Shown here: in pieces, positions 12,021-40,430 of the stretch
Position numbering within the stretch: position 1 is the first letter of the stretch
How the letters are laid out: each line of letters opens with the position of its first letter
Source of the DNA: Streptomyces sp. SS1-1
GTDB lineage: Bacteria > Actinomycetota > Actinomycetes > Streptomycetales > Streptomycetaceae
Assembly: GCF_008973465.1 (NCBI RefSeq)
Contig: NZ_WBXN01000004.1
Location: 1,116,001-1,180,000 of the forward strand
DNA length: 64,000 nucleotides
Direction of reading: 5' to 3'
Notes under the pieces: generated by a model
The model's input: only the letters and a program-made list of their open reading frames with translations
What the model was told of the DNA's origin: nothing
Databases searched by the model: none
Made by a program: the position numbers and the translations under genes

Positions 12021-12168
12021 TTCCCGGGTCCTCCTGCCTCATAGGGGCACGGACTCCGGGGCTGCCGATGACGGCGGAATGTACGAGCGAGAGCACCGGG
12101 GGCGACGCCGGACGAGGGTCCGCCCCATGGACGAACCGGTACGGCGGCGCGCACGAGGCTCGCCCGCC

Positions 12169-12295
12169 GCGCACTGCCTCCCATCCGGACTTTAACCGTC
12201 GGTCCAGGAATTTCACCTGGTCAACCGGTCGCTGGAGGCGACCGGGTCGCGGACTGTAACCGCCGGTTCGGACTTTCACCGACCCCGGAGTGCGC
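12169..12295 (-). promoter_or_regulatory. FMN riboswitch (RFN element)
   Basis: Read leftward, the segment contains the conserved RFN blocks: TCGGTGAAAGTCCG, CGGTTACAGTCCGCGACC, CCGGTTGACCAGGTGAAATT and GACGGTTAAAGTCCGGATGGG. The closing P1 stem is GCGCAC (12295-12290) with GTGCGC (12174-12169). A GC-rich GGCGG/CCGCC pairing downstream, still about 100 bases before ribE, could be the expression platform. It should lower expression of the whole ribE-to-hisG operon when FMN is abundant. Confidence 0.95.
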
Positions 12296-12437
12296 TGCTT
12301 GTGGTACATGGCCAGTGTGCCACGACCGATGGGCGTCCATACGGGCGAAGGGTGTGGGGTGGCTCACAGGACGCTTCCCTGGACGTCTCGGGCGGGCGGC
12401 GATGCCCTCAACTCGCCCGCACCGCCGGAGTCTTGCG

Positions 12438-12482
12438 AGTGGTCCATACCTATTGACGCTGTGGTCTAGTCCTCTCTACTGT
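12438..12482 (+). promoter_or_regulatory. Chitinase-type promoter with two DasR-like boxes
   Basis: Two direct repeats lie 22 bp apart: TGGTCCATACCT (12440-12451) and TGGTCTAGTCCT (12462-12473). Each matches 11 of 12 bases of the TGGTCYAGACCT repeats known from Streptomyces chitinase promoters and the core of the DasR operator. They flank TTGACG (12453-12458), with TACTGT (12477-12482) 18 bases on. No chitinase follows; a stretch with GC hairpins and then an epimerase-like gene does. Confidence 0.65.
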
Positions 12483-12487
12483 CAGCG

Positions 12488-12566
12488 GTGCGCGGCGGGG
12501 ACCGGTGCCCCGCCGCACCCATGAGAGCGCCCGGCGGCGGTGACGACGGCCCTTGCCCGCCGCCGG
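12488..12566 (+). terminator. Two GC-rich hairpins immediately after the promoter
   Basis: The first hairpin (12488-12518) pairs CGGCGGGG with CCCCGCCG and continues as GTG/CAC with a small bulge. The second is a perfect 10-bp stem, CCGGCGGCGG (12531-12540) with CCGCCGCCGG (12557-12566). Either could terminate transcription started at about 12489. The remaining 130 bases before the next gene show nothing else. Confidence 0.45.
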
Positions 12567-12695
12567 GTCTCCCCAAGCGCACCCCTGGGGGGTGTCTTGC
12601 CCCCTCGGATGTCACATCTCCCCGGGATGCTCCGTCGGGTACTGCGAGGGATGCTCCGAACCGGGAGTGTCCGCGTCGCGAAGGGGCTGAACACG

Positions 12696-13439
12696 ATGAC
12701 CACGATGCTGGTGACCGGCGGGACCGGAACGCTCGGCCGGCACGTCACCGAGCGGCTGCGGGCGGACGGGCACGAGGTGCGGGTGCTCAGCCGGCACGCG
12801 CAGCCGTACGCCGTCGACCTGCGCAAGGGCGGGTCCGGGCTGGACACCGCGATGGCCGGCGTGGACACCGTCGTGCACTGCGCGAGCTCACCGAACGGCG
12901 GCGACGAGGACGCGGCGCGGCATCTGATCGCCGCCGCGCGCGAGGCCGGGGTGCGCCACCTGGTCTACATCTCGATCGTCGGCGTGGACCGGGTGCCGTT
13001 CGGCTACTACCGCAGCAAGCTCGCCGTGGAGCGGCTGGTCGAGGAGTCGGGGCTGGGCTGGACCGTGCTGCGCGCGACGCAGTTCCACGATCTGCTCGCG
13101 CGGATGCTGGGTGCCCTCGCCAGGCTGCCGGTGGTGCTGCTGCCGGCCCGGGTGAAGGACCAGCCGATCGAGGTCGCCGAGGTCGCGGAGCGGCTGGCCG
13201 GACTGGCCGGGGGCGAGCCCGCCGGACGCGTCACGGACATGGGCGGCCCGGAGGTGCGGACGTTCGACTCGCTGGCCCGCTCCTACCTGAAGGCCACCGG
13301 CCGCAGGCGCCTCGTCGTGAGCGTGCCGCTGTGGGGCCGGGCGTACCGCGCCTTCCGCTCCGGCGGGCACCTCGCGCCCGGGCACGCGGTGGGCAAGGGG
13401 ACGTTCGAGGAGTACCTGGACCGGCGCTTCGGTCACTGA
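12696..13439 (+). CDS. NAD(P)-binding atypical SDR (NmrA/epimerase-like)
   Basis: A 247-residue Rossmann-fold protein. The nucleotide-binding glycine motif is at the very start (MLVTGGTGTLGRHV), followed by VVHCASSPNGGDEDAARHLIAAAREAGVRHLVYIS and a YYRSKLAVERLVEESG helix in which the Tyr-x-x-x-Lys pair is replaced by YYRSK. This resembles NmrA or TMR-type NAD(P)H-binding proteins that act as redox sensors or quinone/azo reductases; the substrate is unknown. The ATG at 12696 has AAGGGG 9 bases upstream. An upstream extension of the frame lacks similarity. Confidence 0.85.
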   Translation: MTTMLVTGGTGTLGRHVTERLRADGHEVRVLSRHAQPYAVDLRKGGSGLDTAMAGVDTVVHCASSPNGGDEDAARHLIAAAREAGVRHLVYISIVGVDRVPFGYYRSKLAVERLVEESGLGWTVLRATQFHDLLARMLGALARLPVVLLPARVKDQPIEVAEVAERLAGLAGGEPAGRVTDMGGPEVRTFDSLARSYLKATGRRRLVVSVPLWGRAYRAFRSGGHLAPGHAVGKGTFEEYLDRRFGH

Positions 13440-30543: not shown

Positions 30544-30677
30544 GACCCAAGCCTGCCATGCCCCGGCGCGATTGTTACCCCCGGTCCAGACCTCAGACGA
30601 TCGTCGTATGCCGACGGCGGGCCGCGCGTGCCATGCTGGGCGGCCGACCGGGTCGTCGGACGGCTGCGGGGGTGCCC

Positions 30678-40199: not shown

Positions 40200-40430
40200 A
40201 ACGCTCCCTGGGGTTGCAGCGGCTGCTGGCTGATCATTGGTGGACGGGACGGGGGCTGCGCCCGGCGTCGTCCGTGGACAGTTTATCTGTCGTGCCCGGT
40301 CACGGACCCCCCTGTCTCGCCTCTCGGGAGGGCTGTGACCTGCGGCACGGGCATTCTGCCAATCGCACACGGCGGTGGCCAGAGGCGCCACGCCCGAATC
40401 GGGCGGGTGCCGGACACCCTTCCGGGTGGG

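Follow-up and report, generated by a model that had tools for sequence, protein, structure and literature searches.

Why should a promoter of the type that drives chitinase genes in Streptomyces stand at a locus where no chitinase follows? The question is raised by a 64,000-nucleotide stretch of the Streptomyces sp. SS1-1 genome (the window), for which an earlier note had offered three explanations: a chitinase deleted with its promoter and end hairpin left in place, a short GlcNAc-responsive RNA, or control of an epimerase-like (NmrA) gene downstream. Coordinates are positions in the window, on the forward strand unless stated otherwise.

The promoter and its operators

The two direct repeats described in the earlier note, 22 bp apart around a -35 element and each matching TGGTCYAGACCT at 11 of 12 positions, are confirmed. 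Operator 1 (TGGTCCATACCT) occupies 12440-12451 and operator 2 (TGGTCTAGTCCT) 12462-12473, and between them lies the -35 element TTGACG (12453-12458). This hexamer was read by eye, as was a predicted -10, TACTGT, at 12477-12482, 18 nt from the -35; relatives mostly carry TAGGGT or similar at the -10 position. Simple consensus scanners returned no promoter and no T-run terminator over 12300-12760, the predicted -10 also being missed. Within the window, three sites match TGGTCYAGACCT with at most one mismatch, two of them being operators 1 and 2; the third, CGGTCCAGACCT at 30582-30593, stands singly. At up to three mismatches the motif is hardly enriched (88 matches vs 69.7 expected, with 5 of 100 shuffles as high).

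The repeats had been assigned to the type of chitinase promoters and DasR targets, and this assignment is borne out by the promoter of S. coelicolor chiI (SCO1444), whose two operators, as printed in Table 1 of PMC4398421, have the same 22-bp spacing; the 16-mers surrounding operators 1 and 2 agree with the chiI sites at 15 of 16 and 14 of 16 positions, respectively. By this match to a printed dre, the locus carries a dre-type operator over a promoter, as expected of the DasR regulon. According to the same source, the chiI promoter was EMSA-positive for DasR, and in ChIP-on-chip chiI gave a single enriched probe, below the authors' strict cut-off (PMC4398421). DasR control of the window's promoter is putative and rests on this published orthologous promoter, which in S. 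coelicolor serves a chitinase, whereas at the window site the coding sequence is gone (PMC4398421). A further promoter of the same type (TTGACGTACTGGTCTAGTCC) precedes a GH18 chitinase gene that lies 17.7 kb away (L319, G000:C4:1110734-1114534, about 5 kb before the window start), which, from its position and sites, looks like the orthologue of chiD (SCO1429).

The chitinase locus in related genomes

As the earlier note had observed, the expected chitinase is missing: no chitinase gene lies between ribE and the ROK gene of the window. The position beside ribE is also, presumably, that of chiI in S. coelicolor. Elsewhere in the SS1-1 genome there are five GH18 matches and one GH19 match, and the chitinases found at this locus in relatives resemble the GH18 proteins at only 24-34%, a distance on which relocation of the chitinase within the genome was rejected.

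The comparison of the ribE-to-ROK interval with other Streptomyces, which the earlier note had proposed, was made by a ribE scan independent of promoter and hairpin. Among the best 80 loci, 40 were from Streptomyces (L001-L039 and L048); 12 of these carry a chitinase at the locus, one a truncated chitinase (L021), and 27 none. The 12 chitinases (L002, L004, L006, L014, L015, L023, L032-L036 and L038) all stand behind the promoter, with TTGACNNNNTGGTCTAGTCC exact in every case, and the locus protein of L036 has GH18, ChiC and CBM5/12 domains. In nine of the 12 (L004, L006, L015, L023, L032, L033, L034, L036 and L038) the window's conserved hairpin is found in the chitinase 3' UTR, its stem beginning 13-63 nt past the stop codon and its loop sharing the motif GCCCTTG; of the others, L002 runs into the end of its contig, and in L014 and L035 the hairpin is a different one or absent. 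Promoter and hairpin are both kept in 20 of the 27 chitinase-less loci, 19 of them with an identical 16-nt loop, although among these 20, L012 and L031 have a degraded operator 2 beside an intact operator 1, and the stem is imperfect in L016 and L026. The remaining seven comprise L037, with the promoter alone, and L009, L025, L028, L029, L039 and L048, with neither part.

A wider census used a model of the hairpin (R1), which matched 96 of 199 sampled Streptomyces genomes at an E-value of 0.01 and, at 1e-4, 91 of 197 genomes of the order, in one of six genera, although filters this strict may lose weak matches. Loci were taken from all 95 matches apart from the window's own; at least seven come from genomes of loci already named (L171 being a copy of L019). 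All adjoin ribE except four weak matches (L241, L243, L245 and L246), and of the 91 beside ribE, 24 have a chitinase and 67 do not. The promoter is present in all 67, in 61 within three mismatches of the pattern and in six by eye, one of which (L187) has operator 1 only.

Genomes with a promoter-pattern match and no R1 match numbered 67, and loci were obtained from 49 of them, the others lacking coordinates or lying close to the ends of contigs. Among the 35 such loci beside ribE, 33 have a chitinase, one a partial chitinase (L280) and one none (L291). Bare promoters are thus almost confined to loci with the special hairpin, in a comparison that is uncorrected for kinship and leaves promoter-less genomes uncounted. 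Different hairpins follow most of the model-negative chitinases, and the L318 locus breaks off. Another recurring hairpin, GACCCGGTGGCCCGGCGGCCACCGGGT, lies behind the chitinase in L273, L274, L278, L285, L287, L289, L307, L311 and L313, species without the GCCCTTG loop; the chitinase 3' hairpins of L308 and L295, missed by the strict search, have loops close to that one (GGCCCTTGCC, on an imperfect stem, and GGCCCTGCC, respectively). L037 and L291, with a bare promoter and no special hairpin, and L280, whose chitinase is reduced to its last third, represent decay in lineages without the GCCCTTG loop.

How often the chitinase was lost was considered on a tree built from the codons of ribE, pnuC and ribBA. 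Its distribution over the 120 rows takes 13 Fitch changes, or 23 losses if regain is disallowed, gain and loss not being told apart. In a 92-row subset, a single clade of the 77 chitinase-less rows was rejected (p-AU 2.4e-44, for a group named after the first tree was seen), and 10 changes are needed. Several loci retain traces of deletion: L181 joins both unit ends of L172, which overlap by 5 bp where they meet, L021 is L015 in shortened form, and C-terminal scraps of the chitinase ORF remain in L161 and L008. The window itself matches L213 at 93-94% across a 44-nt promoter segment and a 48-nt segment around the hairpin. Moreover, chitinase distances track ribE-pnuC-ribBA distances (r 0.74 for 28 chitinases; 0 of 2000 permutations). 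The reverse history, in which a chitinase was inserted into an older small-RNA locus, is disfavoured by the ORF scraps and by this correlation, although some gains may have occurred. The first explanation of the earlier note, deletion of the chitinase, is thus upheld by the chitinase present here in relatives and by the traces in L181, L021, L161 and L008.

What conservation of the remnant implies

Two GC hairpins had been reported behind the promoter. Both are present, but wide conservation is seen in the second alone: the first (12492-12516) was seen in the window and its sister L177 and is absent from the other units compared, whereas the second (about 12529-12568), matched by R1, is the hairpin that stands behind the chitinase stop codon in relatives and is its presumed mRNA 3' end. 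Its loop, TGACGACGGCCCTTGC (12541-12556), holds the GCCCTTG motif and is the predicted active part. In an alignment of 22 sequences, four of the 12 stem pairs changed on both sides, and 97.7% of cells are paired vs 31-57% when the alignment is slid; conserved structure and covariation of this kind are expected of a small-RNA gene. An intrinsic terminator is less well matched, the GC hairpin having no T-run after 12568.

Rfam at the locus gave the FMN riboswitch of the divergent ribE operon as its sole family (12167-12297, minus strand; RF00050, 98.8 bits), a neighbour outside the unit; promoter and hairpin themselves match no Rfam family. Far from the site, a Streptomyces-metK RNA (RF03063, 116 bits) lies at 40204-40320 on the minus strand. 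A repeated element was rejected, as R1 has one strong match in the SS1-1 genome and the next scores 26.9 bits. A hidden peptide was rejected as well: the frames that open with a GTG at the border of stem and loop range from 16 to 511 codons, five of 74 units lack this GTG, and stem indels shift the frame.

These 74 distinct chitinase-less units had hairpin and promoter as conditions of selection, so that the constancy of the loop among R1 matches is partly by construction. Operator 2 has a mean pairwise identity of 99% and the loop one of 93%; third codon positions reach 79% and the 16-nt flanks 31-34%. The 27 loci of L001-L039 without an intact chitinase (L021 included), chosen through ribE and free of this bias, have the 16-nt loop exact in 19 cases and the 11-bp core of operator 2 exact in 20; in 81 background intervals from the same loci, operator matches never had fewer than two mismatches and loop matches never fewer than three. 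Variants of the loop sit in its 5' half, leaving only GCCCTTG common to all. The -35 is kept as TTGAC in 67 of the 74 units, a shifted reading, TGACC, being listed apart; the units that have lost it (L017, L027, L159, L175, L176, L188 and L192) keep operator 2 and the loop exact, which may reflect a switch to another type of promoter or a role of the operator on its own.

The spacers between promoter and hairpin range from 16 to 430 nt (median 37.5), and in one clade of 16 rows the -35 is 36-38 bp away from the stem, the promoter almost abutting it, and any RNA made there would consist of hardly more than the hairpin. In seven loci of six genomes (L018, L019, L024, L026, L154, L166 and L171) the unit is inverted as a block relative to ribE. 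Promoter and hairpin thus belong together without the enzyme, given that repeated ORF loss mostly spared both ends, operator and loop are retained over variable spacers, and the unit was inverted as a block.

What they jointly encode admits several readings. That the loop is a protein-binding site or an mRNA 3'-end stability signal, the bare unit serving as a sponge and not by base pairing, seems unlikely. A long and constant loop would suit it, as would the presence of the hairpin on the chitinase mRNA itself and the fact that no complementary target stands out in the SS1-1 genome; it has, however, no candidate protein, and the reduction of the common loop to GCCCTTG suits a short seed equally well. 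Slightly less probable still is that the parts are non-functional leftovers, either because little time has passed since the loss or because the hairpin still terminates neighbouring genes, for instance the convergent ROK gene. The deletion scraps do show some losses to be recent, and where NmrA is missing the end of the ROK gene lies just behind the hairpin. Yet species whose third positions and flanks have diverged as given above share an exact operator 2 and an exact loop, in the ribE-found set as well; a terminator needs neither a fixed loop nor an operator, and the rarity of bare promoters without this hairpin also speaks against decay.

A role of the operators as DNA, as a DasR decoy or in control of the divergent ribE operon, is very improbable: ribE adjoins the site and operator 2 is exact even in the seven units with an altered -35, but the loop is left unexplained, the promoter lies at least 1.5 kb from ribE in L014, L015, L021, L032-L035, L037 and L038, and inversion in six genomes left the internal order of the unit unharmed. 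The NmrA-like gene of 247 residues is where the earlier note had reported it (12696-13439), with the Pfam domains NAD_binding_10 and NmrA, but its control by this promoter is hardly credible and was rejected: units are kept without such a gene in L005, L007, L011, L012, L016, L026, L027 and L031, the gene also lies behind intact chitinase genes in L004, L006, L014 and L023, and its direction is unchanged where the unit is inverted (L018, L019 and L024).

A predicted small RNA and its relation to known systems

We consider it probable that the site is the emptied locus of the chitinase at the chiI/SCO1444 position, whose promoter and 3' hairpin have been kept as a predicted small-RNA gene likely induced by a chitin-derived amino sugar. 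The chitinase of relatives at this place, the promoter and hairpin common to both kinds of locus, the repeated absence of the chitinase across the tree and the conservation of operator and loop amid variable spacers and flanks are established at the level of sequence, and a small hairpin RNA maintained under a DasR-type promoter, rather than decaying, is the plainest reading that fits them. The earlier suggestion of a short GlcNAc-responsive RNA thereby joins that of deletion in one story, in which the kept parts resemble a short-RNA gene that has been maintained.

Such an RNA would be transcribed from about 12489 to about 12572, ends predicted from the position of the promoter and from the hairpin; the segment folds at -54.4 kcal/mol (z -3.0), and one of 200 shuffles was as good. 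DasR would be released from the operators when GlcN-6-P is high, and the RNA would act in trans through its open loop, GACGACGGCCCUUGC. The loop complement GCAAGGG resembles a ribosome-binding site, and target mRNAs complementary to GGCCCUUGC might thus be masked by pairing. Within the SS1-1 genome the loop complement occurs at 20 sites within two mismatches (one being the locus itself) vs seven for the reversed pattern, with no target above control, and pairing of its own chitinase genes with the loop did not exceed that with shuffled loops. Where a species still has the chitinase, this hairpin would form the 3' end of the chitinase mRNA, and there it may yield a 3'-UTR-derived small RNA or act as a terminator and stability element; only after ORF loss would the hairpin RNA have its own promoter. 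Against a small RNA count the loss of TTGAC in seven of 74 units, the loss of both parts in six of the 27 chitinase-less loci found through ribE, and the missing T-run.

More broadly, repeated ORF deletion may have fused a chitin-responsive promoter and a hairpin into a minimal, trans-acting, GlcNAc-induced small RNA, with selection defending the RNA and not the enzyme; we rate this route to small-RNA genes at about even chances. If true, the RNA would couple chitin sensing to mRNAs in a large share of Streptomyces and add another small RNA to the GlcNAc/DasR circuit, through which nutrition is connected with development and antibiotics. The natural series of intact gene, partial deletion and bare promoter with hairpin would illustrate how small-RNA genes can arise from mRNAs. 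It would also account for the many genomes in which a chitinase promoter has no chitinase behind it, and it suggests that, where the enzyme is still encoded, the hairpin downstream of chiI has a separate function.

ChiX of enterobacteria is likewise a small RNA tied to the use of chitin sugars, although it belongs to an unrelated phylum, depends on Hfq and has no origin in a chitinase gene. Within Streptomyces, a regulatory parallel is scr5239, a small RNA under a dre with core TGGTCTAGTCCA (PMC4398421) in the GlcNAc circuit (PMC7025569). It differs in its 159 nt, five stem-loops and location near dasR (Rfam RF02605; PMC7025569); the site described here fails to match RF02605, which has a separate match in the SS1-1 genome at C4:4798731. 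S-SodF, from the 3' end of S. coelicolor sodF mRNA, resembles the predicted RNA in origin, although, as summarised in the review, the mRNA is retained and the target, sodN, is known (PMC9438474). Similar in form is scr1434/sar6912/svr1031, which is strongly expressed in three species and forms one very stable stem with a C-rich loop (PMC3765725); it is named for SCO1434, ten genes from SCO1444, and is thus, going by gene number, a different RNA. The tables of Moody et al. (PMC3765725) may hold a transcript of the predicted RNA. Literature on Streptomyces small RNAs (SCO1444, DasR, chitinase and GlcNAc) and on mRNA-derived small RNAs, outside subscription journals and supplements, yielded neither this RNA nor a conversion of this kind. 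DasR-controlled small RNAs, 3'-UTR-derived ones and those with C-rich loops are already known kinds; new would be the repeated change from an mRNA gene to a stand-alone small-RNA gene.
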